From Schizochytrium sp. TIO01 (lineage: Eukaryota > Sar > Bigyra > Thraustochytrida > Thraustochytriidae), in contig SMSO01000031.1 in the NCBI GenBank assembly GCA_004764695.1, positions 122,600 to 186,599 on the forward strand: DNA of 64,000 nucleotides, read 5' to 3'. Each line of letters begins with the position of its first letter. Positions within the stretch are counted from its first letter, which is position 1. The position numbers were made by a program, and so were the translations under genes. A model generated the notes under the pieces. It did no database searches, was not told the DNA's origin, and saw only the letters and a list, made by a program, of their open reading frames with translations. Positions 9,149 to 64,000 of this stretch are shown here, piece by piece.

Positions 9149-10837
9149 GCGGCCTGATTAAAGAAGGAGATAGAAAAAGCAGAGTGACTTTGAATGCGAA
9201 CAAAATCTAGATTTAGCAGCGGCTGCGGCTCAGCCTCCTTCACGTGAGGGAGAATCAAGGGGTTCTCCGGTCTGAACGTCTGATTTTTGCTGAGCTCGCC
9301 TGCTTTACCGCAAACTTTAAAGACCGCCCTCTATTCTTTGAGCGCATCGAGACTGAGAATATGCGTAAATACTACTAGGACTAATTTTTTGTGGCTTAAC
9401 AATAAATCTTTTTGTAAAATTTAACCAATACCAAAAGGAAACTTCATGAGCATTTGGCAATCAATGTAAACGAAGCAGTACCAAGCATTGTAGTGCTTAA
9501 TTGAGTAGTTTCTAAACAAGTGCGCTCCTACAAACAATTAAAAATAATCCAAATGCTCACCGAACGTAACAGGCAATGAAATGAAGTGTCGAAATGAAAA
9601 GTTTCTTGAGTTTGTTAATCAAAAATAATAACAATTTGATTGAAAAATTAAAATAGAAATAGAAATATTTAGGTCTTCCATACCTGCTACAATCCTTGCA
9701 GATGCGAGGCGCCTATTCAAAACTCAGGCTGCAAACAATAATAGCGTACTGATATTTAAAACATTGCAACTCTGTGATACAGGGCTGCAATACCACTGGT
9801 ATTTCTAGATTATCCTATCGGTGTTCGATCATTCCAAGCAAATAATAACAACAGCTTTCAAACGCAAACGCAAAGAAGAATTCGTACTTCAATTTTTTGC
9901 CTCTGGAGGGCAAGCAACAATATGATCTTGAGTGAAATGAGCAAGCTCTATAGTGCTGAACCTGCTATTAAACATGCCTTGGTGATGACCATCGTACCGT
10001 TGTTAGTGAGAAGTAGATATCTACCTAGGTAGTAGAATAGCTCACAAGCAGAACTTGGCTTGATTGCTTATTCGTTATGTGTACAAACTTCGTTTTTGAA
10101 GTGTCGACCAGGATCCTCGCGAAAAGGGTTGCTTCAAAAGCCTGAGTGGGTTCTTCACTTTGTGGAATCAAGTCAAACTCGGATCAGATACGGAGCAAAC
10201 AAGCCTGAAGGACGTCATCTTCAAGACAATTGCGTACCTGTGAACGTGGAGCCCCAGGTATGGCGGTACTTTATAGGTTATGCAAAATTTTTATTTCCAA
10301 GGTTAATCACTCGTGGCGATAAATTTACCTTACTTCATGTGCGCATGTGCAAGGCAATTCTGGGCGCAACTCAAGCTACAATAAGTTAATTCAATCTTCG
10401 TACCGCGATCATTCTTTAATTTAGTGCCCCACTTTTCATCGATAGAATAAATGTAAGAATCATGAAAAATTAAGAGAGATAATTATTATTGACATCATCC
10501 AAAAGCAAAAAAGAAAGGGTCAATTTTCAATAATATTGCAGAACCCATTTTGAAGTTCCCCTGGTTCCCACCCTTTCCTTCTCTTGAGAATTGACAACCG
10601 CCAAGTTGAAGCCCTGGAATTCTTGAGCCTGCGTTTATTTCACGACACGAGAAGAAAGTAGAAAGTGTTTGCCAATCTATTAAGTAGAGTACAAGAACAA
10701 AGAAAATAGTGCACGCGCAATATTATTATCGCAATCATTCTAAACTACCAATTGGGGGTTTAATGCTGAGAAAAAACAAAATCAAAATCGTAGCACTCGT
10801 CCCTTGGCCTTTATTGAAATAATATACAGCTACTGTC

Positions 10838-10880
10838 TAACCTCACCTCCCCTCACCTAACCTCACCTAACCTAACCTAG
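10838..10880. repeat. Interstitial telomere-like CCTAA/CCTCACCTAA tract
   Basis: Degenerate tandem words CCTCACC, CCTAA and CCTCACCTAA. On the minus strand this reads TTAGG alternating with TGAGG, close to telomere-type repeats (TTAGG/TTAGGG). Confidence 0.7.
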
Positions 10881-27811: not shown

Positions 27812-30800
27812 ATGCCCGGCAACGATGGTTTGCCGCCTGGCTGGGAGATGTCAATTGACGAAGAGACGGGACGCACGTTTTACATCAATCACAACACCAT
27901 GCAAACCAGCTGGACACCCCCCGTAGAAGAGCCACTCCCACCTGGGTGGGAGCAACAACGTGATGGAGAAGGCCGCATCTTCTTCATCAACCACAACACC
28001 CAGCAAACTCAGTGGGAGGACCCTCGCCTGTCATTTGAGGATGCGCCGTCGATCTCGTACCCTTCATTTGATAATGATAACGCACAAAGTAGCGGCCCTG
28101 GTTATGATTCTGGCTACTATTCGCAGTCTATGAACAGTAGCTATGGGGCAGGGGGCAATGTGTCGAGCAACGGCAGTGGCAAGGTGTCCTGCTCTGCATG
28201 CACATTTGAGAACTCTCCTTCGGATACCGCTTGCTCCGTTTGTGGCACAGATCTTCCTAAGACAAATGCCAATAGTGGAGGTAGTAGCTACGAATCTGGC
28301 GCAAGAGCTGGCGGTTCCGATGAAATTGATGCTGCCACAGCCGCAGCCATCGCTGCTGCACAAGCTGAGGATGAGGCGTACATGTCTCAAACTGGGAGCG
28401 CTAACGAGTATATTGAGGTAACAGACCCTCGGGAATTGGAGCCCTTTGCTGTACCGGATGAATATTCGATGATTTGTACACTCTGTGCCAAGCCATTTGA
28501 CTGGAAGAATCGCAAACATCATTGCCGCTGCTCAGGTGGTCTGTATTGCCAAGACTGTAGCTCACACAAGGTTCGCTTTGCTGTTCGTGGCGAAGACGTC
28601 AAGGAGCGCCGTGTGTGCGATATTTGCTTTGAACACCAAAATGCTGGTGACCGTCACTGTTATTTGCGGTATATAGGTATTTTACGCGATGCTGGAGGTG
28701 CACGCCGCAAAGATCGTTTTCTAGCATTTAAGGGTGTTGCTCAGATGGTAGAAAGACTTCCCAATGCCATGCAGCCTCACGCTAGCGTTGAGGATCAAGC
28801 TATGGCTAGCCGCACGCTACACCAGATTGAGCGTTGTGGTGGCGCAGCAGCATTTTGCGAGCTTGTGTCCCCGGATAATGAGCGCGAAGCACAGATCGAA
28901 AGCTGTCGTGCGGTAGCATGCATGGCCGAGGTCGCAGCAAGCTCACCAAGCGGAAGTGAGGCATCTCTTTCAAGATCACGCTTGCGTAATGATCTCTCCG
29001 AAGGTTCCGTTGCAATGTCTTCAATCGCGAGCATGCTGCGCCCAGACACACCATGGGAGGCACATATGCATTTGGCCAAAGCATTTTACCTTTTAGGAGA
29101 TATGTCTGAAATTCAGCTTTCTGTACGCAAAATGAATGTGATCGGGCCTCTTTGTGAAGATCTGCTTGCCTCTGAAGAGCAACTGCAAAGCTGGACAGTG
29201 CGCGCCATATCGCGTCTCATTGATAACAATGCTGATAACGTCGAAGCTATGCTTGAGGCAAACGGCATGCAAGCCCTAGTTCTCTTGCTGACATCCAATG
29301 ATGACCTTGTCAAGGAGCACGCCACAGCAGCGATTTGCTCTGGTCTTCAGCTGGAAGTAACTAATCCTGGCCGAGGTGGTATGCTTGCATCTCGAATCCG
29401 GGATGCTATAGTAAATTTGGGCGGTACCAGTGCCTCTGTCGCGCTTCTAGGGTCAAACAATGCAACTGTTGCCCGAAGCGGCTTGCGTTTGATTATGCAC
29501 CTTTCCAATGGCCAAGCTGAGGTTGTGCGAGCTGCTGGTGCAGTCCCACTTGTGGTAGCGCTACTTGCAAGTCGTGATAGCGAAATTCAAGCAAGCGCTG
29601 CTCAGTTATTGCGAAATATTGCGCAATGCAGTATGGCAGGCAGTGCTGAGGTTTTGGAGAGCGGTGGCCTTTCAATGACAATTCCACTCTTGGGAGCTCC
29701 AGATTCTCAAACACGTAGCAATGCCGCATCCTTGTGTGAAATCTTCGCTGCTGATGAGCAGGGGTCAACAAACATTATTGAAGCCCATGCGGTGCCGGCT
29801 TTAGTTAATCTTGTGCGGGATAGTGACAACTCTGTGCGAGGACCAGCTGCAGGGACTCTGGTTCAGCTTTTGCAATGCGGATCCCACGAAAAGCAGATTG
29901 TAGTTAATGCTGGTGGTGTAGAGGCTCTTCTCGGACTTGAGAATAGTTCTGATCCCATGGTTTTGCGCCAGCTCGTTGGCGCAGTGTATTCATTTGTTTC
30001 GGACGCCTCGCTGCTGGAAAGTTTATCACGACGCATTGCCCCTCCTACTATGGCAATGAAACTTTTAGGCCTTCTTGGAGGACAACACGCACGTTCCTTG
30101 GACATGCACACCATCGAGATGCTTCTTCTAGTTGTTGCAGTTCTTTGTGGCGCTCGCGATGGAGACCAATTGAAGACTGATGCAGAGCTTGCCGAAGCTA
30201 CACCTACTGAGACTCAGACACGGGACTTGGTTGCAAGCAATGGCTCACAACTAATCCTTCCCTTGCTTTCATCTTCGCGCGATCAGCCTGCCCTCGTCCT
30301 CGCTGTTTTCCGCCTGCTTCTCTCAGTATGCAGCTCCATGAACGGCGCCACCGCTGTCGCTAAAGCAGGAGGTATCACTGCAGTTGTACGGGCACTTGAC
30401 GATTCTCTTCATGTCGAGGCCTCCGACGCCGACGCTGGCAACCTCGTTACACAGCTTCGCCAATATGGAATTGCGCTCTTTGGTCGTTTATGCAGTGGTG
30501 GAAACGCCTCCGGGGGTCGTTCTGATACAATCTCCACAGCAACTGCTGACGATGTGCGCTATGGTGTCCGTGCCATCACGCGTGTGCTGGATCAACCAAA
30601 CCATGCTGCATCTGACCACGAGCGTCTCGCGATGCAACTGTCAGCTGTACGTGCACTTCGAAGCCTGTCTTTTCACAGTGGAAATTGGGAAGCCATTGCC
30701 TCTGTTGCACTGCCTCAGCTGATTGAAATGCTACTGAGTAATGACTCTCAATCAACTTTGCTGGCAGACATTGCTTCAGTAATTTCTAACCTTGCTAAAT

Positions 30801-33800
30801 TAGAGAAGCACTCAGACATGGTCCTTGATGCAGGTGCGGTTTTTGCTCTTCTTGGTTTGCTCTCCGAGAAGGAAGGGGAAGCCGTGGAAGCAGGCTTGCG
30901 GACGCTGATTGCCTTAGCGGAATCATCTAAGCGTTGCCGGTTAGCTATTGTTGACCAAGGTGCTGCACCAAAGCTTTTGCATCTCGCCGAACAACGCGAG
31001 TCGCCAATCCCGGAGCTTGCTCTCAAATGTCTTTCCACTCTTGCCAAAGAACCTGCTAATGCACCAAAGATCACTGCAGAAACTGGCGCCACAGACTCGC
31101 TCTTACGTCTACTTAAATCACCGGACTCCAATGTTTCAGAACAGGCGATGGAGATTCTGCTTGCCGTTGCTAAAGACAGTGATACACTGTGGCAGCAACT
31201 TGTGGTCAATGCGGATATCGAGTCTGCAGTTGCGTTGCTGAAGCTAGGCCCTCCGCGAGTTCAAGGTCAGGCGTGTTCTACGATTGCAGCTTTGTGTGGA
31301 GACTCTCCTGGGTATGCTCTGTGTGCGTCGCCCACAATCCTTGAAGTTCTCCCTGTGATCGTGCAGCTTCTGACTCCTCCTGAACACTTCGGTGCAGACA
31401 AGTCCGAGTCACCTGCCAAGGAGGCTGCTGCGGCCTGTGCTCTGCTCTCTGGATCTTCTGTAGCCCGTGAAGCGCTCGTAGCTGCTGGGGTTATCCCGAG
31501 TCTGGTGGCGTTGCTTCTGCGTGAGCGTCGCCTAGGCCGGCCCCGCTCGGCAACATCCGAGCATACTCTTCGTGCTTTGTTTTCTTTGAGTTCGTCTGCT
31601 GCTTCTGAGGAAACTTCAGAGCAAGATAGTCCTAATCTTTCACTCTGGACAGGTATTCAAAAACTTGGTAAGCGCCGTGATGCTATTGACGCAGTCATCA
31701 CAATTTTGGATGCTCATATTCGAGACACCACTCCGACGCCAAGTGGATGCGACCGCATGGATATATGCGAAGAGGCAGTCGTGTTGCTCGGACGCCTTCC
31801 AGGAGCCCTGACTCCGAACGAGGTCACACTTATCGGACGATCTGCGCGTTCCATTAACTTGGTGATGGGCGAGGTATGCCCTGAGTCTCTTATGAAGGCA
31901 TGCTTGCAAACCTTGGGACGCCTCTCAAAGGAACCTTCGTTAGTGCAGGTTTTGACGGCAGCAGGCACAATCCGTACGGTTTCGCGTCTCTTGGAACCAC
32001 TTCTTAGCAGCGAAGATACGAGCCAGGATATTCATGTGGAAGCCAGTGTTACACTTCAAGCGGCCAAACTCATCGCTTCTATCGTACATGATGCCCATGA
32101 TCGAAGTGTGGATGATGCCATCATCGGTACCAAGGCCATTCCTGCTTTGGCTGCCCTTCTTACTCGTACTGATGAGTTGTTTCCTGCTCATGAGCATGCT
32201 GAAGCTGCTCTTTCTGCAGGGCTTGAAGCCATTGCTTCACTAGCTCGAGGTGGTCCTGCTGTGCAAAAGGCTATTATGAAAAGTGGTGATAGTGTACTGC
32301 CAGCCTTGGCCCAGGTTGTGGATCGTTTTGACCATGATGGAGACGAAAGTTTGCCCCGCGCTACATACGCTTTTGTTACGCTATCGCGCCTGGCTACTCT
32401 TGGCGAGCATCGGCACGCTATTGTTTCAGCAAAGCCGAGCTTGACGAATATTGCGTGTCGCGTGTTTGAGTCTACCGAAGATGCAAAACTTGTGCAAGCA
32501 GCCACTCAGTTCGTGGCGGATCTCGGTCCGTCAGTGCTAGATGGCCAAGTTGTTGAGGCGCTTGTATGTAAGGTTATCTCAAATGAGACCTTTTCGAACT
32601 CCCGAGGCCCTGCTCTACAGGCGCTGGGAGTTTATGCAATGGACCCGGCCCTTGGTGAGCAAATGCTAGACCTCGGTATCCTTGACACAGTAATTGATCT
32701 TTTGCAAGAGGACAGTCCCGAAGGAAAGCCTGGAGTCCATGTACGTAGTGCAGCAACTCTCTTGCGTCTTTTGTGTAGCCTTTCTGCAATACGTGGTGTC
32801 CAGCCAAAGCAGCCCCATGATTTGAGTAAACCTGCTGCAAACGGTGCAACAACCGTCAATGGTCAAGACGAAGATTGTGAAAAGGAAGGCGATATGGATG
32901 ATGAAGCTACTGAGTCTGAGTTGCCAAGCCCTAGTGCCCCCGAGTCTAACGGAGACAATGAAGCTGCTGCCATGAAAAACCTAGAGCGATCTGTTGATGC
33001 CTGCAGCGCTGTAATTCTTGGTGAGAAGAACTACCCTCCCAGCGTTGTTACTGAAGCACTTCTAGGTTTAAATATGTTGGTGCTGACCAAGGAGGCTCGT
33101 GAGCGTGTAGCAAAATTGCCCAAGCTCCTGCAGATGCTGAAGAGCATAGCAATTAGCGCAGCCTCTGAAACCTTTGCTGCTCAAACGGCTGCGAATGTGG
33201 TCCGCTTTATTGGTACAGGCGAGGTTCTAGAACAGGAAAGGTCTCGTCCTCGTGGTCCTCCGCCCCCGCTTGCTGCAGGAGCTGGTCCTAAATCATCACC
33301 TACGTCACCACCACCGCCTGCACCCGGGTCAGTGTCTTCAAGCGTGTCCTCGCCAGTCTTGAAACCTACGAATGGGTATGCAACTAAGCCTCCTGCACAA
33401 GCTTCGACTTTCGCGAGCTCAGCTAGTGTGGCAAGCAGCAGCAGCTCTAGGCCTGCACCACCGCCTATGATGTCATCCCAAAGTTCCCTTCCCCGTTCTT
33501 CACCTCTGATGGCGCCCCGGCAGCCACCATCTGGCCCTCCTCCACCCATCAGTGGAAGTGCCAACTCAGGTACCTTGCTTCCCACATACAGCAATACTTC
33601 TATGAACTCTTCATTCAGGCGCACTCCATCGTCATCCCAATATACGTCTGGTGGTGGTAACGGTGGTCGCTCGCTATCATCATCCTCATCAACCGCAATG
33701 TCTGACGAACAGTATGCCATGCGTCTTCAAGCAGAAGAGGATCGCCGTGCTCGTGAGCAACAGGCAAAACGGCCGGCCTCAACTCCTGCACCAGCTGCTC

Positions 33801-34054
33801 AGCCCAAGGCCTGGTCTTGCAGCAAATGCACATTTGAAAATGGTTCTGACAAGGCTAAATGCGAAATGTGCGATACAGCACGACCGGGAGGTGCAGGGTC
33901 ATCGTCGAATGCAGGTGGAGGCGGTTCTACTAGCAACTTGGTGCGCGTAAAGTGTCCAAACTGTGGTACTGTACTTGGTGCTCCTTCTGGTGCTCAAATG
34001 TTTCAATGTATGCAGTGTCACACTACATCAGCGGTGAGTGCTCATCGATGTTAG
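27812..34054 (+). CDS. WW-WW-RanBP2 zinc finger-FYVE-armadillo-RanBP2-LSD1 zinc finger protein
   Basis: 2080 residues, single exon. Two WW domains at 5-38 and 41-75 (LPPGWE...FYINHN..TSW and LPPGWE...FFINHN..TQWEDP) bind Pro-rich ligands. A RanBP2-type finger (CSACTFEN...CSVC) lies near 125-150. A FYVE finger at about 210-280 has CTLC, the RKHHCR phosphoinositide-binding signature and a RRVCDIC end; the leading WxxD Trp is absent (FAVPDEYS). About 1400 residues of armadillo/HEAT-like repeats follow (ALVLLLTSNDDLVKEHA, GAVPLVVALLASRD and similar). A Pro/Ser-rich linker (1810-1950) leads to a second RanBP2 finger (CSKCTFENG...CEMC) and a C-terminal LSD1-type finger (VKCPNCGTVLGAPSGA..FQCMQC). 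The likely role is an endosomal PI3P-binding scaffold with ubiquitin-binding fingers, by domain knowledge; the partners are unknown. Confidence 0.88.
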   Translation: MPGNDGLPPGWEMSIDEETGRTFYINHNTMQTSWTPPVEEPLPPGWEQQRDGEGRIFFINHNTQQTQWEDPRLSFEDAPSISYPSFDNDNAQSSGPGYDSGYYSQSMNSSYGAGGNVSSNGSGKVSCSACTFENSPSDTACSVCGTDLPKTNANSGGSSYESGARAGGSDEIDAATAAAIAAAQAEDEAYMSQTGSANEYIEVTDPRELEPFAVPDEYSMICTLCAKPFDWKNRKHHCRCSGGLYCQDCSSHKVRFAVRGEDVKERRVCDICFEHQNAGDRHCYLRYIGILRDAGGARRKDRFLAFKGVAQMVERLPNAMQPHASVEDQAMASRTLHQIERCGGAAAFCELVSPDNEREAQIESCRAVACMAEVAASSPSGSEASLSRSRLRNDLSEGSVAMSSIASMLRPDTPWEAHMHLAKAFYLLGDMSEIQLSVRKMNVIGPLCEDLLASEEQLQSWTVRAISRLIDNNADNVEAMLEANGMQALVLLLTSNDDLVKEHATAAICSGLQLEVTNPGRGGMLASRIRDAIVNLGGTSASVALLGSNNATVARSGLRLIMHLSNGQAEVVRAAGAVPLVVALLASRDSEIQASAAQLLRNIAQCSMAGSAEVLESGGLSMTIPLLGAPDSQTRSNAASLCEIFAADEQGSTNIIEAHAVPALVNLVRDSDNSVRGPAAGTLVQLLQCGSHEKQIVVNAGGVEALLGLENSSDPMVLRQLVGAVYSFVSDASLLESLSRRIAPPTMAMKLLGLLGGQHARSLDMHTIEMLLLVVAVLCGARDGDQLKTDAELAEATPTETQTRDLVASNGSQLILPLLSSSRDQPALVLAVFRLLLSVCSSMNGATAVAKAGGITAVVRALDDSLHVEASDADAGNLVTQLRQYGIALFGRLCSGGNASGGRSDTISTATADDVRYGVRAITRVLDQPNHAASDHERLAMQLSAVRALRSLSFHSGNWEAIASVALPQLIEMLLSNDSQSTLLADIASVISNLAKLEKHSDMVLDAGAVFALLGLLSEKEGEAVEAGLRTLIALAESSKRCRLAIVDQGAAPKLLHLAEQRESPIPELALKCLSTLAKEPANAPKITAETGATDSLLRLLKSPDSNVSEQAMEILLAVAKDSDTLWQQLVVNADIESAVALLKLGPPRVQGQACSTIAALCGDSPGYALCASPTILEVLPVIVQLLTPPEHFGADKSESPAKEAAAACALLSGSSVAREALVAAGVIPSLVALLLRERRLGRPRSATSEHTLRALFSLSSSAASEETSEQDSPNLSLWTGIQKLGKRRDAIDAVITILDAHIRDTTPTPSGCDRMDICEEAVVLLGRLPGALTPNEVTLIGRSARSINLVMGEVCPESLMKACLQTLGRLSKEPSLVQVLTAAGTIRTVSRLLEPLLSSEDTSQDIHVEASVTLQAAKLIASIVHDAHDRSVDDAIIGTKAIPALAALLTRTDELFPAHEHAEAALSAGLEAIASLARGGPAVQKAIMKSGDSVLPALAQVVDRFDHDGDESLPRATYAFVTLSRLATLGEHRHAIVSAKPSLTNIACRVFESTEDAKLVQAATQFVADLGPSVLDGQVVEALVCKVISNETFSNSRGPALQALGVYAMDPALGEQMLDLGILDTVIDLLQEDSPEGKPGVHVRSAATLLRLLCSLSAIRGVQPKQPHDLSKPAANGATTVNGQDEDCEKEGDMDDEATESELPSPSAPESNGDNEAAAMKNLERSVDACSAVILGEKNYPPSVVTEALLGLNMLVLTKEARERVAKLPKLLQMLKSIAISAASETFAAQTAANVVRFIGTGEVLEQERSRPRGPPPPLAAGAGPKSSPTSPPPPAPGSVSSSVSSPVLKPTNGYATKPPAQASTFASSASVASSSSSRPAPPPMMSSQSSLPRSSPLMAPRQPPSGPPPPISGSANSGTLLPTYSNTSMNSSFRRTPSSSQYTSGGGNGGRSLSSSSSTAMSDEQYAMRLQAEEDRRAREQQAKRPASTPAPAAQPKAWSCSKCTFENGSDKAKCEMCDTARPGGAGSSSNAGGGGSTSNLVRVKCPNCGTVLGAPSGAQMFQCMQCHTTSAVSAHRC

Positions 34055-52959: not shown

Positions 52960-54743
52960 GGTACTATTTAAAGTAATTGCTTAGTTGCTTATCCTGTGCC
53001 GCACAAAGTGGCAAAAGAGGATCAATGTTGAAGATACTTGACTGTTGTCACAATCGTCATCAGCCCATTAGAATTGTTACCAATTCGGTAAGAGAAGCAC
53101 CACAAGAAGCTGGCACTTTCAATGGCAAAGAGAAGCGATGCTGATAACTCAGGCTTTGAAGTATATTGAACCGGATAAATCGTAGGCAGTGATCAATTGA
53201 TATCTGCAGAATGGCCTGCAGAACGTGGCTCGCCACTCCGATTGAATACTCCAGATTTATGGAAATGGTTTTTCTCGTCCTAGCTTGTCCCAACCATTTT
53301 GATTGCTCTGATCACCATTGCGGTAAACACTGAGCCTCTGGAGTTGTCGGTGACCACCCGCGGATGCGACAGACCCGCTGAAGAAGCCTTGTTTCAAGCA
53401 GATACTGCATCTCAGTTATTTTGGGGGCTCAGTTTCAACATCTTTCAGTATATCTGCCTTGCATTTAACCTTTGTTTGGAAAAGATTCAAGGAAGAAACT
53501 TTCAATAACCCTGCTACCTGAGCGCTCGTTCAGTAATGAACAGAATTAGAACGGTTTTAAACTGTTTAAAAAGTCCATCTTCTCTACTACTATGCTGGCA
53601 TGAGCACCACTGGGTAAGTAAGTACCTATGAACAGGAGAACAACAATAAATCGGGAATGCTGCACGAATGGAAGCAGGTCTGCTTCGTACATTTTCAATG
53701 CTCCTATGTAAGTTTGCTGGTATGTGTGATTTATGTATAGTTACTATGGGCCAACCTGGCAATTATATGGCTGGTTTGATACGTAGCATTTCTAATTTTC
53801 GTGCACATGTTTCAACAATGATTTAAAATAACTCATCATTGTACATGACGCAGCTATGTCCATATTGTACATTTGTAGTATCAGCTTTGCTTGGCTTTTT
53901 CGCTTCAAGAGAGCCTGATTTATTACCTGCATGCAAGGCGTGACTTATGTCAGGGTCTATGGCTCATCGCTGTTGGCCTCGTTTAAAGGGAGGATAATTT
54001 GTTAAATCTCCGACTCTTACGCTAAGACAAGAAGAGATGCTCGTTATAAATTATATTACAGGTGTTTCCTAAATAGTGATTCTTTTTAAAATCATCTGCT
54101 CTATGCTTGCATTAGAACTAAATTATTCCTCCTCCATCAGTGTATCAGCATCAGCGTCGAACAGTTCAATGAATTATTCGTTTGGAAATTAGAAAATACT
54201 CGATACCTTGAATTAGTGCCTATAAGTCTGAACGACTCTTTGAGGCAGCACTTTTATTTAATTTAAGCTGTCTGAGGGCTCGTTAAAGCCTGTGAATAAG
54301 CCTGTGAATAAGCCTGTGAATAAGCCTGTGAACCTCATTTATTTTTTTAAGTTGCGTGCTCCAGACCTGATTGTTTTCTCGTCAAGCAACGACTGAATGA
54401 ACAACGGTATTCTAAAAGTTCGGAATCGGTATCCTATTCTGATTTCAGTAGGTATTGTCTTTATTTGCGAGCACCGTATAACCCTACGGGTACATCTGGA
54501 AACGTTATAGCATTTCTTGGAGTTGCGAAAGGCAGTCTAGCTAGTGTCTCCTCAAAGGCTCTCTTACTATCTCTTCAGAATTTTTAGTCCAAGGAAAAAA
54601 TCTGATAGAACCCATTACTAAGACACAGCTAATACTTTCCTTACGAGTACGTGACTTTGTCCAGAAATAGCCTTTTAGTACACTTTCCAATTTAAGACGT
54701 AGTACTTTTCAAAAGTACTACATCTAAGCTCCTTACCACTCCG
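52960..54743. other. Intergenic region before the tandem kinase array
   Basis: AT-rich; no gene supported. Contains a 12-bp tandem repeat at 54289 and, at the right end, the left boundary of the duplicated unit (54743/54744). Confidence 0.5.
54289..54333. repeat. 12-bp tandem repeat, CCTGTGAATAAG x3.7
   Basis: Three perfect copies plus a partial fourth. Confidence 0.95.
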
Positions 54744-54796
54744 AGGAGGTAGCCAGCTAGCAGCACAGACATACCTTTTATTATTTATTTTATCAC

Positions 54797-57378
54797 TTAT
54801 TGTAGCCTTTCAAAAGCTCGCCGACAATTGCTCGATGACGGAAATCGTTGGTGTGCGTCCGAAACACACTCACGTGCACCCAACTTGATAAGAATCTGAG
54901 ACACTTTGTCATTCCGCGATAAATTGAAAATTGCCCCGCATGCTTGTTCTTGCACGTCTGCATTGGTTCGATGTGCGCGCATGGCGGCCACAATCTCTGC
55001 GCCCACATTCAAATCTTGTCCCAGGATCTCTTTGTTGCGATCATTATTTACAGCAAGATTCCACAATGCCGCGCATGCGTTCTTTTGCACGTCTGCATTG
55101 GTTCGATGTGCGCGCATGGCGGCCACAATCTCTGCGCCCACATTCAAATCTTGTCCCAGGATCTCAGCGTTGCGAACATTATAAGCAAGATTCCACAATG
55201 CCCCACATGCGTACTTCTGCACGCCTGCATTGGTTCGATGTGCGCGCATGGCGGCCACAATCTCTGCGCCCACATTCAAATCTTGTCCCAAGATCTCAGC
55301 GTTGCGATCATTTAGAGCAAGATTATTCAATGCCCCACATGCTTCTTCTTGCACGTCTGCATTGGTTCGATGTGCGCGCATGGCGGCCACAATCTCTGCG
55401 CCCACATCCAAATCTTGTGCTAGAGTAATTCGGTTCTTCATATTACTGAACGCGAGGGTCCTGACACAAGCACATGCTGCGGCCTGCACCGCTGCTTCGC
55501 TCGCGTGCTCTTGCATAATACTTAACAGTACCGGGCCGATATCATAGGTCGTCATTGCAGCTTCAGTATATTCATTGGTAGCTTCACGATGAAACGCGAA
55601 ATGGAATATCCAAAGTGCTTCAGAAATCACTTCGGTGTCGCGTTGCTCTTCCTTTAGGATTCTCTGCAAATGAACAAGAACGCCCCGCTCACGAACAACT
55701 CTCCTCAGCTCATCATCGCCACCTGCGGTCTCAGCAGCTTTGAATTCACCTTCCAGAGCATCATGCAAGATCTGCAGTGTTCGTAGCAGATCCGTTCGAT
55801 CGCCTCGCTCAGCCAGATCTCGAACTAGACCCCGCACCATTTCGACATTCACATTTCGTTTTGCAGATGTGCGATGGTTTTTCTTTCTGAATGCAGCCGC
55901 AAGCCCGCGAATGATACGGCTCGATCGGCGTTCAGCACCTAGAGACTCGAACCTCTTTAGAGCCTCCTCAGCAGTTGGTCTGTTTGCAGGTTCATCGTCC
56001 CAACAAGACTCCATGATGCGGACTATCCAGAGTTTCACAGGTATTTTCTCAGATATTTCAGGACGCTCGCCTGCGAGAACCCTGCATTCAAGCTCTCCTG
56101 GTTGATACACGAGATGCTTGTATGGCGTCTCCTCGTGGTACATCTCCCATATAATCAGGCCTAGAGAATAGATGTCTGCCTTTGTTGTCCAACGAGCTGG
56201 AGCTTGAAGTACTTCTGGAGCCATGTACACCGGGGTTCCGGCCACCGAAATGCTGTCTGCAAAGCTTGTATTCGGGCTCGTTCTGTCTGCAAGACCAAAG
56301 TCTGCGAGTTTTACTAAGCCAAGATCTTGACTGAGAAGCACATTGGCAGGTTCCAGATCACCATGAATCACATTTTCACTGTGCAGATAGCAGAGCCCTC
56401 GCGTGACACCGCGCAAAATGGCCTCTTTATCATCAAGTCCAAGGGTAGTGCGTGTGCCGCTCGGTTCGGTCCCGTGCAGTAACTCATCTAGAGGGAAGTC
56501 GCATTTGTCCATGACCAAATGAAACCGGTTCCGAATGATGCATGTGCCAAGAAGGCAGACGATGTTTTTGTGCTTCAAACCTTGCCAGCTTTGGGCCTCT
56601 TCCATCAATGCCTTTTGCTCAGCAAACTGAAGGCGACCACGGATTTGTCGAACTCTCTTGATAGCAACTGATAAATTTATCCCATCCTCGCCTTGGAGAA
56701 CACCTGACAGGACTTGGCTGAAGCTGCCTTCACCAAGAATATGTTCTGGATAATCTATGGTAACCTTTTCCGGTGGTATTGTGGCCATCTCAGATTCTTG
56801 AGTTTCTCGCAGTGTACGAATAAGCTCTTGCAGCGTTCGTCGCTGTCTTTGCGTCCCAGCACGACCTGCTATGATATCTGCAAGGCTGATGTCAGGATGG
56901 TCTTTGAGCAATAACAGTATGGCTTCAACTTGGTCGTGACCTTCGTCTTGGTATTGCTTGATCATGTTTTCAAGACGAAGGTGGTCTTCTTCGGCATCGT
57001 CAAGATCAATTTGCTCAATGGATGCAGGAGGGGATGGGAACTCGAAGCGGATTCGGCAAACTTGGATCAATGTTTGCAGACGCTGCTCTGCATCTGCGAG
57101 CACTTGAGTAGCTCGCTTGGTTGTAAAATTATGGTAGATCTATTATCACTAGGATCGAAGAATTCGCGAAGTAGCGAGATGATGTTGCGTAGACTAGCCT
57201 CTACCTGAATGAAATTAATATCAGCATTTTGCTGGGGCTCCAGGAAACTGGCAAGCTTGGTGAAGACATTGTTGAGATGTGCAGCTCTTCGGCGGCACGT
57301 GTGTGTATGCTCGAGAAGTGTCGCGGCCTCGCGGGCTAGCTGAAGCGAAGAAGTGAAGTTTGGCAGAATGCTCGGCAT
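54797..57378 (-). CDS. TKL-type kinase with N-terminal helical domain and 4 near-identical armadillo repeats, copy 1
   Basis: The N-terminal frame (first ATG at 57378; open upstream without ATG to 57499) and the kinase frame (stop at 54797) are offset. Removing 57149-57094 (GTGATA...CGCAG) joins them into 841 residues. N-terminal helices (LQLAREAATLLEHTHTCRRR, ASLRNIISLLREFFD) resemble the four-helix bundle found in MLKL and related TKL kinases. The kinase domain (about 191-463) has GEGSFSQV, the VAIK lysine, an alpha-C Glu, DFGLAD and MAPEVL, but the catalytic loop reads HGDLEPAN: Gly replaces Arg and Glu replaces the usual Lys. An armadillo-like region follows, ending in four 44-45-residue repeats (QDLNVGAEIVAAMRAHRTNA...). 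Soluble signalling protein; role unknown. Confidence 0.8.
54887..55417 (-). repeat. Armadillo-repeat coding array, 4 units
   Basis: Four units of 132-135 bp, each beginning QDL[N/D]VGAEIVAAMRAHRTNA. Variation is concentrated after that block (VQEEACGALNNLA, VQKYACGALWNLA, VQKNACAALWNLA, VQEQACGAIFNLS). Confidence 0.95.
57094..57149 (-). other. Frame break in copy 1: short intron or frameshift
   Basis: The upstream frame stops at 57067 and the kinase frame is closed upstream by TAG near 57145. The GT...AG segment of 56 nt is the best phase-matching splice I find (exon 1 ends in phase 1). CAG|GTAGAG upstream with acceptor GAGCAG is an alternative of about 110 nt. It is short compared with the three firm introns (282-379 nt). 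Confidence 0.45.
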
Positions 57379-58756
57379 GTTATGCAGACCTGCGTGACTC
57401 AGGCCGTGCTGGAGAGCTCGGGCAGTACTGGTTGCTCTGAGAAGATGGTCTGCCAATGCATTAGCAGCCCATGTCTGAACATCATCGTGCTCAAGATTTA
57501 ACTACTACCTACAACCTACTATATACCCTACGATATACGTGCTGCTATTAGTTGGTACCTAATGGTGCTATGGACTACTAAGGGCACTCATAGAGCCGCC
57601 TAGGAGGTTTTCTTTTTTCTTTATTTGAAGGAAACATTCAGTTATGCTACTCTCACCGTCAAAGGTTTTCTTTCTCAAAATGCTGGGGGACAATTAAAAT
57701 CAAAGCATTGTATAATACTTCCTCTTGGACCAGCATGAACAAATCAAGTTCCACCCATCTCACCAAGAAGACAAAGTGGCTCACTGCTAGTATATTCCAG
57801 TTTTCGAGAGACTTTCCAAAGCTAGTTTCTACAAAAGCCCTACTATGCTTCAATTTGATGTTTTAATCAGAATGAGTATGGATAGGATCAGCCTTCGAGA
57901 GAAGTAACCCATTCAATAAGGCTTCGCATTGTTGGAGTATCCTACCGACTGAAAGATTCTTCGTTTATTTTATTATATTTTATTATTCCTAAGTAGCCTA
58001 ATGTGTGCATTACCGCTCTTGAAATAAATAAATTCTACTTTTAGAAAATACTAAAAAAAGTAGGTACACTTGAGAAAGATTATCATGTATATATGTTACA
58101 CCTAGCGTAGCCTAGAGTAAAATTAGCAATATTATTATTCACTACCAATAAAACACACTTTTTTCTTTCTTTTTATTGTTATTTTGTTTTTTAAACTTAT
58201 GAACAAAAAAATATATAAGAATGGCTAACAACATGCAATATAGGATACTAGTAGGTAGCTAAAAATGATAATAATCTCTAGAGTAAGATATGATTCTAGC
58301 TAGCGTAACACTATTGCTATTCACTACCAGTTTTTTTTAGATTAAAAAAAGTTAATTTATAAAATTACAAAACAATTATGTGCCGTCTTCTTAGCTTTTG
58401 TGGCACATGTTCGAACAAGCACGCAAATATATCAGATTTCCAACATGGCTAACGCCATAGATCTTCGCAGCTCAATTATGATTGTTTTAGGCTTGCTGAT
58501 CATCAGCATGCGTTCTATACAAAGCAACGCAGCCTGCCTTCTTCATCGAGACCATCTCAATATGCAACTTAAACTAACTTGATCGGCAGTTCTCTAGCTA
58601 GAAAAGCGAGGGGAATGCCTAGGTATGACATTTTTCTAAAACGCCCTTTGTCCTTTTCTTTCAGCCCCTGCGATGGTACCCGTAGGTACCTGCCTGCATA
58701 CAAAGGAGGTAGCCAGCTAGCAGCACAGACATACTTTTTATTATTTATTTTATCAC
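57379..58756. other. Spacer between kinase copies (5' region of copy 1)
   Basis: About 1.4 kb, very AT-rich at 57950-58400. The part right to 58703 is repeated in unit 2 with no difference found on comparison. It should contain the kinase promoter. One small plus-strand frame (58445) is listed separately; another (57659-57853, -) has no recognised feature. Confidence 0.6.
58445..58582 (+). CDS. Possible small peptide with signal-like N-terminus
   Basis: 45 codons from ATG. A hydrophobic core (SIMIVLGLLIISM) after a short polar start, followed by SNAAC, has the look of a signal peptide or single membrane helix. An identical frame occurs in the second unit because the spacer is duplicated. May be chance. 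Confidence 0.2.
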   Translation: MANAIDLRSSIMIVLGLLIISMRSIQSNAACLLHRDHLNMQLKLT

Positions 58757-61700
58757 TTATTGTAGCCTTTCAAAAGCTCGCCGACACTTGTTCGATGACG
58801 GAAATCGTTGGTGTGCGTCCGAAACACACTCACGTGCACCCAGCTTGATAAGAATCTGAGACACTTTGTCATTCCACGATAAATTGAAAATTGCCCCGCA
58901 TGCTTGTTCTTGCACGTCTGCATTGGTTCGATGTTCGCGCATGGCGGCCACAATCTCTGCGCCCACATTCAAATCTTGTCCCAGGCTCTCTCTGTTGCGG
59001 TCATTTAGAGCAAGATTCCTCAATGCCCCACATGCTTTTTCTTGCACGCCTGCATTGGTTCGATGTGCACGCATGGCGGCCACAATCTCTGCGCCCACAT
59101 TCAAATCTTGTCCCAGGATCTCTTCGTTGCGATCATTATTTGCAGCAAGATTCCTCAATGCCCCACATGCGCACTTTTGCACGTCTGCATTGGTTCGATG
59201 TTCGCGCATGGCGGCCACAATCTCTGCGCCCACATTCAAATCTTGTCCCAAGATCTCAGCGTTGCGATCATTTAGAGCAAGATTATTCAATGCCCCACAT
59301 GCTTGTTCTTGCACGTCTGCATTGGTTCGATGTGCGCGCATGGCGGCCACAATCTCTGCGCCCACATCCAAATCTTGTCCCAGGATCTCTTTGTTGCGAT
59401 CATTATTTGCAGCAAGATTCCTCAATGCCCCACATGCGCACTTTTGCACGTCTGCATTGGTTCGATGTTCGCGCATGGCGGCCACAATCTCTGCGCCCAC
59501 ATTCAAATCTTGTCCCAAGATCTCAGCGTTGCGATCATTTAGAGCAAGATTATTCAATGCCCCACATGCTTGTTCTTGCACGTCTGCATTGGTTCGATGT
59601 GCGCGCATGGCGGCCACAATCTCTGCGCCCACATCCAAATCTTGTCCCAGGATCTCTTTGTTGCGATCATTATTTGCAGCAAGATTCCTCAATGCCCCAC
59701 ATGCGCACTTTTGCACGTCTGCATTGGTTCGATGTTCGCGCATGGCGGCCACAATCTCTGCGCCCACATTCAAATCTTGTCCCAGGCTCTCTCTGTTGCG
59801 GTCATTTAGAGCAAGATTATTCAATGCCCCACATGCTTGTTCTTGCACGTCTGCATTGGTTCGATGTGCGCGCATGGCGGCCACAATCTCTGCGCCCACA
59901 TCCAAATCTTGTCCCAGGATCTCTTCGTTGCGATCATTATTTGCAGCAAGATTCCTCAATGCCCCACATGCGCACTTTTGCACGTCTGCATTGGTTCGAT
60001 GTGCGCGCATGGCGGCCACAATCTCTGCGCCCACATTCAAATCTTGTCCCAGGATCTCTTCGTTGCGATCATTATTTGCAGCAAGATTCCTCAATGCCCC
60101 ACATGCGCACTTTTGCACGTCTGCATTGGTTCGATGTTCGCGCATGGCGGCCACAATCTCTGCGCCCACATTCAAATCTTGTCCCAAGATCTCAGCGTTG
60201 CGATCATTTAGAGCAAGATTATTCAATGCCCCACATGCTTGTTCTTGCACGTCTGCATTGGTTCGATGTGCGCGCATGGCGGCCACAATCTCTGCGCCCA
60301 CATCCAAATCTTGTCCCAGGATCTCTTTGTTGCGATCATTATTTGCAGCAAGATTCCTCAATGCCCCACATGCGCACTTTTGCACGTCTGCATTGGTTCG
60401 ATGTTCGCGCATGGCGGCCACAATCTCTGCGCCCACATTCAAATCTTGTCCCAGGCTCTCTCTGTTGCGAGCATTTACAGCAAGATTATTCAATGCCCCA
60501 CATGCTTGTTCTTGCACGTCTGCATTGGTTCGATGTGCGCGCATGGCGGCCACAATCTCTGCGCCCACATCCAAATCTTGTCCCAGGATCTCTTCGTTGC
60601 GATCATTATTTGCAGCAAGATTCCTCAATGCCCCACATGCGCACTTTTGCACGTCTGCATTGGTTCGATGTGCGCGCATGGCGGCCACAATCTCTGCGCC
60701 CACATCCAAATCTTGTGCTAGAGTAATTCGGTTTTTCATATTACTGAACGCGAGGGTCCTGACACAAGCACATGCTGCGGCCTGCACCGCTGCTTCGCTC
60801 GCGTGCTCTTGCATAATACTTAACAGTACCGGGCCGATATCATAGGTCGTCATTGCAGCTTCAGCATACTCATCGGTAGCTTCACGATGAAACGCGAAAT
60901 GGAATATCCAAAGTGCTTCAGAAATCACTTCGGTGTCGCGTTGCTCTTCCTTTAGGATTCTCTGCAAATGAACAAGAACGCCCCGCTCACGAACAACTCT
61001 CCTCAGCTCATCATCGCCACCTGCGGTCTCAGCAGCTTTGAATTCACCTTCCAGAGCATCATGCAAGATCTGCAGTGTTCGTAGCAGATCCGTTCGATCG
61101 CCTCGATCAGCCAGATCTCGAACTAGACCCCGCACCATTTCGACATTCACATTTCGTTTTGCAGATGTGCGATGGTTTTTCTTTCTGAATGCAGCCGCAA
61201 GCCCGCGAATGATACGGCTCGATCGGCGTTCAGCACCTAGAGACTCGAACCTCTTTAGAGCCTCCTCAGCAGTTGGTCTGTTTGCAGGTTCATCGTCCCA
61301 ACAAGACTCCATGATGCGGACTATCCAGAGTTTCACAGGTATTTTCTCAGATATTTCAGGACGCTCGCCTGCGAGAACCCTGCATTCAAGCTCTCCTGGT
61401 TGATACACGAGATGCTTGTATGGCGTCTCCTCGTGGTACATCTCCCATATAATCAGGCCTAGAGAATAGATGTCTGCCTTTGTTGTCCAACGAGCTGGAG
61501 CTTGAAGTACTTCTGGAGCCATGTACACCGGGGTTCCGGCCACCGAAATGCTGTCTGCAAAGCTTGTATTCGGGCTCGTTCTGTCTGCAAGACCAAAGTC
61601 TGCGAGTTTTACTAAGCCAAGATCTTGACTGAGAAGCACATTGGCAGGTTCCAGATCACCATGAATCACATTTTCACTGTGCAGATAGCAGAGCCCTCGC

Positions 61701-62676
61701 GTGACACCGCGCAAAATGGCCTCTTTATCATCAAGTCCAAGGGTAGTGCGTGTGCCGCTCGGTTCGGTCCCGTGCAGTAACTCATCTAGAGGGAAGTCGC
61801 ATTTGTCCATGACCAAATGAAACCGGTTCCGAATGATGCATGTGCCAAGAAGGCAGACGATGTTTTTGTGCTTCAAACCTTGCCAGCTTTGGGCCTCTTC
61901 CATCAATGCCTTTTGCTCAGCAAACTGAAGGCGACCACGGATTTGTCGAACTCTCTTGATAGCAACTGATAAATTTATCCCATCCTCGCCTTGGAGAACA
62001 CCTGACAGGACTTGGCTGAAGCTGCCTTCACCAAGAATATGTTCTGGATAATCTATGGTAACCTTTTCCGGTGGTATTGTGGCCATCTCAGATTCTTGAG
62101 TTTCTCGCAGTGTACGAATAAGCTCTTGCAGCGTTCGTCGCTGTCTTTGCGTCCCAGCACGACCTGCTATGATATCTGCAAGGCTGATGTCAGGATGGTC
62201 TTTGAGCAATAACAGTATGGCTTCAACTTGGTCGTGACCTTCGTCTTGGTATTGCTTGATCATGTTTTCAAGACGAAGGTGGTCTTCTTCGGCATCGTCA
62301 AGATCAATTTGCTCAATGGATGCAGGAGGGGATGGGAACTCGAAGCGGATTCGGCAAACTTGGATCAATGTTTGCAGACGCTGCTCTGCATCTGCGAGCA
62401 CTTGAGTAGCTCGCTTGGTTGTAAAATTATGGTAGATCTATTATCACTAGGATCGAAGAATTCGCGAAGTAGCGAGATGATGTTGCGTAGACTAGCCTCT
62501 ACCTGAATGAAATTAATATCAGCATTTTGCTGGGGCTCCAGGAAACTGGCAAGCTTGGTGAAGACATTGTTGAGATGTGCAGCTCTTCGGCGGCACGTGT
62601 GTGTATGCTCGAGAAGTGTCGCGGCCTCGCGGGCTAGCTGAAGCGAAGAAGTGAAGTTTGGCAGAATGCTCGGCAT
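58757..62676 (-). CDS. TKL-type kinase with N-terminal helical domain and 14 armadillo repeats, copy 2
   Basis: Paralogue of copy 1 in the next tandem unit. The N-terminal and kinase frames are offset at the same site (62448-62391); removing 56 nt gives 1287 residues. In the kinase frame before the array I count only three residue differences from copy 1 (Glu/Asp in RDLADRG, Asn/Asp and Thr/Ala in EATDEYAEA), and the N-terminal frame is the same. The same HGDLEPAN catalytic loop is present, so the change predates the duplication. The array has 14 repeats instead of 4, mostly alternating two repeat types. The last repeat (GAIFNLSWNDKVSQILIK) and the C-terminal cap correspond to copy 1. Both copies keep full-length frames, so neither looks decayed. 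Confidence 0.82.
58847..60715 (-). repeat. Armadillo-repeat coding array, 14 units
   Basis: 1869 bp. Type A units end VQKCACGALRNLAANNDRN (135 bp); type B units end VQEQACGALNNLALNDRN (132 bp). A+B dimers of 267 bp recur in the middle of the array. Two A-type units are adjacent near 60000. Confidence 0.95.
62391..62448 (-). other. Frame break in copy 2, identical to copy 1
   Basis: Equivalent of 57094-57149 (62392-62447). The same candidate 56-nt GT...AG segment is present, with the same stops in the two frames. Confidence 0.45.
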
Positions 62677-64000
62677 GTTATGCAGACCTGCGTGACTCAG
62701 GCCGTGCTGGAGAGCTCGGGCAGTACTGGTTGCTCTGAGAAGATGGTCTGCCAATGCATTAGCAGCCCATGTCTGAACATCATCGTGCTCAAGATTTAAC
62801 TACTACCTACAACCTACTATATACCCTACGATATACGTGCTGCTATTAGTTGGTACCTAATGGTGCTATGGACTACTAAGGGCACTCATAGAGCCGCCTA
62901 GGAGGTTTTCTTTTTTCTTTATTTGAAGGAAACATTCAGTTATGCTACTCTCACCGTCAAAGGTTTTCTTTCTCAAAATGCTGGGGGACAATTAAAATCA
63001 AAGCATTGTATAATACTTCCTCTTGGACCAGCATGAACAAATCAAGTTCCACCCATCTCACCAAGAAGACAAAGTGGCTCACTGCTAGTATATTCCAGTT
63101 TTCGAGAGACTTTCCAAAGCTAGTTTCTACAAAAGCCCTACTATGCTTCAATTTGATGTTTTAATCAGAATGAGTATGGATAGGATCAGCCTTCGAGAGA
63201 AGTAACCCATTCAATAAGGCTTCGCATTGTTGGAGTATCCTACCGACTGAAAGATTCTTCGTTTATTTTATTATATTTTATTATTCCTAAGTAGCCTAAT
63301 GTGTGCATTACCGCTCTTGAAATAAATAAATTCTACTTTTAGAAAATACTAAAAAAAGTAGGTACACTTGAGAAAGATTATCATGTATATATGTTACACC
63401 TAGCGTAGCCTAGAGTAAAATTAGCAATATTATTATTCACTACCAATAAAACACACTTTTTTCTTTCTTTTTATTGTTATTTTGTTTTTTAAACTTATGA
63501 ACAAAAAAATATATAAGAATGGCTAACAACATGCAATATAGGATACTAGTAGGTAGCTAAAAATGATAATAATCTCTAGAGTAAGATATGATTCTAGCTA
63601 GCGTAACACTATTGCTATTCACTACCAGTTTTTTTTAGATTAAAAAAAGTTAATTTATAAAATTACAAAACAATTATGTGCCGTCTTCTTAGCTTTTGTG
63701 GCACATGTTCGAACAAGCACGCAAATATATCAGATTTCCAACATGGCTAACGCCATAGATCTTCGCAGCTCAATTATGATTGTTTTAGGCTTGCTGATCA
63801 TCAGCATGCGTTCTATACAAAGCAACGCAGCCTGCCTTCTTCATCGAGACCATCTCAATATGCAACTTAAACTAACTTGATCGGCAGTTCTCTAGCTAGA
63901 AAAGCGAGGGGAATGCCTAGGTATGACATTTTTCTAAAACGCCCTTTGTCCTTTTCTTTCAGCCCCTGCGATGGTACCCGTAGGTACCTGCCTGCATACA
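62677..64000. other. Spacer 5' of kinase copy 2
   Basis: Repeats 57379-58702 with no difference noticed. Includes the second copy of the small frame at 63743-63880. Confidence 0.6.
63743..63880 (+). CDS. Possible small peptide, second copy
   Basis: Same 45 codons as 58445-58582; see there. Its preservation says little, because the whole spacer is duplicated. Confidence 0.2.
   Translation: MANAIDLRSSIMIVLGLLIISMRSIQSNAACLLHRDHLNMQLKLT

Follow-up and report, generated by a model that had tools for sequence, protein, structure and literature searches.

Repeat exchange and a hypervariable helix face in a family of kinase-armadillo loci of the thraustochytrid Schizochytrium sp. TIO01

We analyzed a 64,000-nucleotide stretch of the Schizochytrium sp. 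TIO01 genome (the window, C30:122600-186599 on contig SMSO01000031.1; the genome comprises 64.06 Mb in 37 contigs), in which two minus-strand units, lying head-to-tail, each encode a protein kinase domain followed by an array of armadillo (ARM) repeats. These units belong to a larger family whose architecture, repeat turnover, exchange of repeats between copies and hypervariable repeat face can be read from the sequence, together with one chimeric unit (in this assembly). The reading that we find rather probable is that this is a thraustochytrid family of diversifying recognition receptors, in which an ARM groove is carried on a TKL-like kinase. Overall the pattern is real and coherent, in an unexpected organism, a marine unicellular relative of the water molds, although the copies in the window are probably damaged and one of them, unit 2, may be an assembly duplicate.

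Both open reading frames (ORFs) of the window pass the Pfam cut-offs for the kinase and ARM families, and the Tandem Repeats Finder scores of the arrays (798 and 2900-2965) are far above chance. The ARM repeats measure 44-45 amino acids (aa) each and number four in unit 1 and 14 in unit 2, where two repeat types mostly alternate. The units differ in length by 446 codons, or exactly 1,338 bp. Measured from 5' anchors, the unit pitch is 5298 bp for both neighbors, whereas the 3' ends are spaced 3960 and 5298 bp apart; since these spacings differ by 1338 bp, the ARM array holds the whole difference and the net change in spacer and kinase is zero. An earlier note on this DNA had described two almost identical head-to-tail units whose 4 and 14 repeats account for the entire 1338 bp, and our coordinates, counts and spacings agree with it.

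A third unit, which reads as the open member of the tandem array, follows just beyond the window. Its N-terminal and kinase region is 98.7% identical to that of unit 1, with 14 repeats against four, and its ARM array is identical to that of unit 2. Alignment of the three units revealed no substitution in unit 2 that departs from both of the others: in its upstream part and most of its kinase, down to window position 61615, unit 2 equals unit 1 and differs from unit 3 only, and from 61106 onward, ARM array and spacer included, it is the same as unit 3. In this assembly, unit 2 is a clean recombinant of units 1 and 3, and the periodicity of 5298 bp with zero mismatches is the pattern to be expected of one very recent unequal crossover involving units 3 and 1. 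No further kinase-ARM frame was found in the 4.7 kb at C30:191796-196500, and on the basis of that stretch an array of more than three units was rejected.

An assembly loop would produce the same picture, with 5,806 bp free of mismatches and nothing private to unit 2. Unit 2 would then be absent from the organism, the exact 5.3-kb duplication would be an error (a repeat or a haplotype path joined wrongly, for instance), and only units 3 and 1 would make up the true locus. We consider this somewhat unlikely, as a single recent unequal crossover predicts exactly the same pattern. Moreover, units 1 and 3 alone, although 98.7% identical in their N-terminal and kinase region, still carry 4 and 14 repeats, and the main claim is therefore independent of unit 2.

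Table 1. Features of the tandem kinase-ARM units (window positions unless a contig is given)
Feature	Position	Strand	Remarks
Unit 1, kinase + ARM ORF	54797-57103	minus	768 aa
Unit 1, frame open across kinase and ARM domain	54797..57139	minus	counted from last upstream stop
Unit 1, ARM array	54881..55411	minus	4 repeats; coordinates computed from residue numbers
Unit 1, kinase domain PF00069	55955..56743	minus	residues 121-383 of the 768-aa ORF
Unit 1, N-terminal helical domain	57121..57378	minus	first Met of conserved start to 10-bp deletion
Unit 2, kinase + ARM ORF	58757-62401	minus	1214 aa
Unit 2, frame open across kinase and ARM domain	58757..62437	minus	5' unit 1 / 3' unit 3 chimera
Unit 2, ARM array	58841..60709	minus	14 repeats; same as unit 3 array
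Unit 2, kinase domain PF00069	61253..62041	minus	
Unit 2, N-terminal helical domain	62419..62676	minus	as far as the frame break shared with unit 1
Unit 2, unit-1/unit-3 crossover interval	61106..61615	minus	kinase end and linker
Exact tandem duplication	55809..61614		5,806 bp, recurring 5,298 bp further on and reaching past the window end; zero mismatches
Unit 3	C30:186654-190706 (window-equivalent 64055-68107)		single open frame of 1350 codons, 14 repeats; starts 55 bp past the window end

Antisense to the ARM arrays, plus-strand ORFs run at 58866-60845 (659 aa) and 54931-55428 (165 aa); they probably only mirror the repeats mechanically. A perfect 12-bp tandem repeat of 3.9 copies lies shortly downstream of unit 1, at window 54286-54332.

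Comparison with other copies in the genome revealed a conflict between repeat similarity and kinase similarity. Outside its own array, the N-terminal and kinase region of unit 3 is closest to three genes at C30:740-755k (92.3-93.2% identity at the nucleotide (nt) level), yet the best matches of its repeats in those genes average 85-87%; for C30:748-750k the values are 93.2% and 86.8%. For C30:242-244k the N-terminal and kinase region is only 80.3% identical to that of unit 3, yet the repeats have a mean best identity of 93% and a maximum of 97%. Likewise, unit 1 and C30:237-239k have one repeat in common at 94.7%, and the N-terminal and kinase region of C30:237-239k is 73.6% identical to that of unit 3. 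This conflict fits exchange among copies of one 67-kb cluster, and exchange of repeats between copies, in keeping with the concerted evolution named in the earlier note, is supported. On average, repeats are 81% identical (nt) within a gene and 70% between genes; in young genes the two values are close, for example 85% inside unit 3 and 84% for unit 3 against C30:241k.

A genome search returned at least 101 matches at E 0.001 or better. Profile counts placed 321 repeat domains in 21 loci, 48 of them at a single locus, and with the addition of C30:230216-232300, which is ARM-only by profile, the family stands at 22 loci of 2 to 48 repeats each. The repeat domain is the variable part, as had been claimed from the window alone, its copy number is wide-ranging across paralogues, and the genome carries a birth-and-death family of kinase-ARM loci. 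The N-terminal domain, kinase and ARM array share one open frame at 10 of the 22 loci; one, on the minus strand of C24, reaches the edge of the DNA examined. At C34:4357056-4360973 and C30:7261849-7264476 the three parts also share a frame and the arrays are broken further on. The frame is broken in units 1 and 2 and at three loci in C30:738-754k, the N-terminal domain is missing at C30:1311k and C31:3713k, and no kinase is visible at C30:5209k, C31:4196k and C30:230k.

At two of these kinase-less loci (C30:5209124-5216089 and C31:4196363-4198964) the DNA flanking the kinase is directly joined, at the same query positions in both, which indicates that the kinase was lost at one shared junction in each of them. 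With their long ARM arrays kept, they may be kinase-less receptors or decoys. C30:5209124-5216089 holds 48 ARM repeats in one stop-free frame of 2322 codons.

Among the matches listed, the same architecture was present in Hondaea fermentalgiana and in contigs labeled 'lgn', in line with the proposal to look in related genomes for an N-terminal helical domain joined to a TKL kinase and ARM repeats. The best nine protein matches were six from Hondaea and three from 'lgn', after which the score fell from 458 to 209 bits and generic kinases followed (best 120 of 924 matches, in a search that scored only the 7991 candidates sharing most words). Four 'lgn' proteins align without gaps to four paralogues of our genome at 99.1-100% identity (P0001 is cut short), and by this likeness the 'lgn' proteins look like those of another isolate of the same species. 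In one Hondaea record, P0006, a protein of the family is joined to a mitochondrial carrier domain, which is probably a gene-model fusion.

In order to locate the variability within the repeat, 272 repeats were analyzed over 44 positions, that is, the 321 domains minus the 15 of unit 2 (the same as those of unit 3) and those with eight or more gaps. Entropy peaked at positions 33, 23, 29, 26, 38, 22 and 19, and most core positions were near-fixed. Except for 38, the variable positions lie on a single side of helix 3. A test of the periodicity over positions 18-34 gave a permutation p of 0.00035, although an ordinary amphipathic helix contributes to such a periodicity too. In the predicted model of homologue P0007 the helix-3 stretch is indeed a helix (residues 679-692), with a local confidence score (predicted local distance difference test, pLDDT) of 92-97. 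The long helix 3s of ARM proteins stack to form a concave groove, and a WxxxN motif on helix 3 of karyopherin alpha contacts the peptide (PMC3885797). Positions 26 and 30 of our repeat have the same spacing as this motif. The repeats of Hondaea (six proteins, 24 of 28 domains kept) showed a similar variability profile, with a Spearman coefficient of 0.85 that partly reflects shared fold constraint; there, positions 16, 2, 38 and 5, outside helix 3, also rank high. We take positions 19, 23, 26, 29, 30 and 33 to be the groove set, following the numbering of designed ARM proteins. The passages of PMC10684580 and PMC6838082 give no ARM position numbers, and the bases of the surface assignment are the designed-ARM numbering and the general helix-3 point of PMC3885797.

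Replacement and silent changes were counted along spanning trees of distinct repeats within genes, using only codons one nucleotide apart. With edges of up to 12 nt, 85 replacement changes stood against 8 silent ones in the groove set, for an omega of 2.95 (p 6.7e-4); edges of up to 20 nt gave 179 and 23 (omega 1.99, p 5.3e-4). By contrast, omega was 0.50 (22 replacement, 17 silent, up to 12 nt) and 0.33 (up to 20 nt) on the opposite face of helix 3, and 0.73 (34 replacement, 23 silent) and 0.97, respectively, on the convex face of helix 2. When the positions were chosen from Hondaea, the tight cut gave 1.71 for the top 7 (p 0.039) and 2.27 for the top 10 (p 0.001). Set against the repeat-wide silent rate, the groove set exceeded 1 in 13 of the 14 genes for which a ratio could be computed, another 4 of the 18 being saturated; ratios taken over this rate were larger, 2.0 to 4.7. 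The single-step counts were picked after the averaged-path result was known. The groove set was fixed after the variable positions had been seen, so that its p values are not fully independent, and the same holds for the within-gene edges. Support for diversifying selection on the groove face is moderate, not conclusive, and it depends on the counting method. Positive selection at variable positions, which the earlier note had suggested testing, is thus suggested by a single-step omega above 1 and not by the averaged-path values of 1.1-1.2, which are not significant.

Compared with unit 3, units 1 and 2 both lack the same 10 bp where the N-terminal helical domain meets the kinase, and this deletion breaks the frame; in unit 1 the N-terminal domain sits in a different frame from the kinase and ARM domain. 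The deletion is derived, since several other copies have kept the longer form. The two window units, taken at first for two genes, are therefore probably 5'-broken derivatives and not intact genes; they may be pseudogenes, start at an internal ATG or be spliced round the deletion. In the 555 codons that follow the break, 8 replacement and 6 silent changes separate unit 1 from unit 3, a ratio of 0.43 based on too few changes to decide.

Several results weigh against a family of diversifying receptors. When multi-step paths were averaged, omega at the helix-3 face was 1.20 and 1.10 (p 0.15 and 0.20, not significant), and 0.98 in open genes alone (unit 3, C30:241k and C30:235k); with a loose cut, the Hondaea-chosen positions gave 1.04 for the top 7 (p 0.44) and 1.30 for the top 10 (p 0.045). 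Twelve of the 22 loci are broken or incomplete, and both window units are frame-broken, unit 3 being open. The repeats of the most divergent open members are only 33-44% identical (aa) and so are not being homogenized. Finally, all four divergent paralogues have the same repeat number in the second, conspecific-looking source, over the part covered. Identical repeat numbers across strains had been named as an outcome that would refute the idea, and for these paralogues they were indeed found, in a comparison that covered divergent paralogues and not young homogeneous arrays like those of the window.

The tally of 12 loci that are frame-broken or lack a domain, both window units among them, and the variable-face omega near 1 by averaged paths would suit a decaying multigene family, in which tandem duplication would have led to the expansion and exchange of repeats as a neutral side effect, and the variable face would reflect nothing but relaxed constraint in dead copies. 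We nevertheless judge decay to be improbable. The core is conserved (averaged-path ratio 0.28-0.32) and so is the opposite face of helix 3 (omega 0.33-0.50), single-step counts show a replacement excess in the groove set, the 48-repeat frame is free of stops over 2322 codons, and all three parts are open in ten loci. Silent changes at the helix-3 face are about doubled, which is unexpected under pure relaxation and which path averaging can cause.

The best Protein Data Bank (PDB) matches of the kinase were RIPK1 (5.5e-28) and LRRK2 (1.3e-27), with non-TKL kinases further down; by these nearest solved relatives we call it TKL-like. In the window units the aspartates of the catalytic loop and of DFG are both retained, with HGDLEP in place of the usual HRDLKP. 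In 4 of 10 rows of the family alignment (P0001, P0002, P0003 and P0007) the DFG aspartate is lost, which suggests that the family mixes possible kinases and pseudokinases. The N-terminal domain is helical in the P0007 model (pLDDT 57-77). A match to MLKL_N was seen in 1 of 12 members (E 0.036); hhalign of the domain against two proteins that bear MLKL_N gave scores no higher than those of shuffled sequences, and PF22215 had no match in the own genome. No significant match to MLKL was obtained by Pfam, PDB profile, own-genome search or hhalign. A search for the domain elsewhere returned the query alone, of 136 candidates. A fold search with the P0007 model gave nearly exclusively kinases among the 50 matches listed; since the kinase part is itself poorly modeled, the result was not used. 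Neither NACHT nor NB-ARC was found by Pfam in nine full-length proteins (E up to 0.01 for the window ORFs, up to 10 for six homologues), and ROC-COR, LRR, ANK, WD40 and RIPK1 partner domains had no Pfam match in the window ORFs or the six homologues.

ARM arrays commonly dock cellular partners. By sequence, the nearest solved relatives of our ARM region are the ARM domain of LRRK2 (5.4e-11), Vac8, plakophilin and catenin, and the arrays of divergent open members are stable in two sources; both observations would be at home in an ordinary signaling kinase whose arrays dock endogenous partners, the diversity reflecting many paralogous partners and not recognition of anything foreign or non-self. 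Conserved partners fit poorly, however, with the rapid turnover of repeats, their exchange between neighbors and the replacement excess on the groove face, and we hold this explanation to be decidedly improbable.

In this family an N-terminal helical domain, a TKL-like kinase (a pseudokinase in some members) and an ARM solenoid follow one another in that order. For a diversifying receptor, we propose that a peptide or protein would be bound in the ARM groove, and that selection would diversify the helix-3 face that meets it. Unequal crossover within and between tandem and neighboring copies would add, lose and exchange repeats, so that new grooves could arise while the kinase stays nearly constant. 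Binding would probably alter kinase activity or N-terminal assembly and then start a signal. Defense or self/non-self recognition would be the most economical use for such diversity.

Elsewhere in the window, a plus-strand frame of 2080 aa (27812-34054) contains Arm matches; judged by eye, it looks like an ARM-type protein of an ordinary kind, separate from the family, with stretches resembling WW and zinc-finger domains. A CTAAC-type short tandem repeat at 10837-10879, inside the contig, is telomere-like.

Among the papers listed in searches of open-licence PubMed Central we found no thraustochytrid kinase-ARM receptor of this kind. It is possible, though we put it forward tentatively, that the family is a previously undescribed NOD-free recognition system of thraustochytrids, in which repeat shuffling between tandem genes makes new grooves, and hence a single-celled stramenopile counterpart of repeat-shuffling immune and allorecognition receptors. 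If so, a kinase-based class with an ARM groove would be added to the small number of known families in which shuffled repeats generate recognition diversity, in a group of marine protists for which the papers listed showed no such receptor. The 272 repeats, whose frame is conserved while their groove face varies, would then also parallel in nature the ARM peptide binders obtained by design.

Among known proteins, LRRK2 and RIPK1 have the nearest kinases and LRRK2 also the nearest ARM domain, but here the kinase precedes the ARM array and ROC-COR, LRR, ANK, WD40 and RIPK1 partner domains were not found. MLKL-type proteins likewise place a helical N-terminal domain ahead of a TKL-like kinase, in some cases a pseudokinase, the kinship of the bundles being without a significant match. 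The LRR-ROCO candidate immune receptors of brown algae, also stramenopiles, have a shuffled repeat domain under diversifying selection (PMC11378527). Unlike our family, in which neither ROC-COR nor LRR was found, they shuffle exons, whereas the kinase-ARM repeats sit in a single uninterrupted open frame. Fungal NLRs are described with C-terminal repeats that resemble one another inside a gene, vary in number and recombine, a few positions of their binding surface being hypervariable (PMC12222747, PMC4986451). Those with high internal repeat conservation (the HNWD genes het-d, het-e and het-r of Podospora, and ANK and TPR NLRs) share with our family the plan of N-terminal, signaling and C-terminal repeat domains, as well as recombination of repeats within and between genes and hypervariable positions. 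In contrast, the kinase-ARM family has a central kinase, with no NACHT or NB-ARC found, and ARM in place of WD40, ANK or TPR. Its mean within-gene repeat identity (aa; 0.80 in unit 3 and 0.79, 0.77 and 0.78 in three others) reaches at most 80%, at or below the 80-85% applied to fungal NLRs. The fungal NLR-type pattern named in the earlier note therefore holds for repeat shuffling and a variable, probable binding face, and not for the NACHT or NB-ARC domain or for kinship: no sign of a fungal host was seen, and the close homologues with a named source are thraustochytrid (Hondaea). By analogy, the kinase-ARM family would work like the repeat-shuffling fungal NLRs while being a member of neither the NLR nor the ROCO class.

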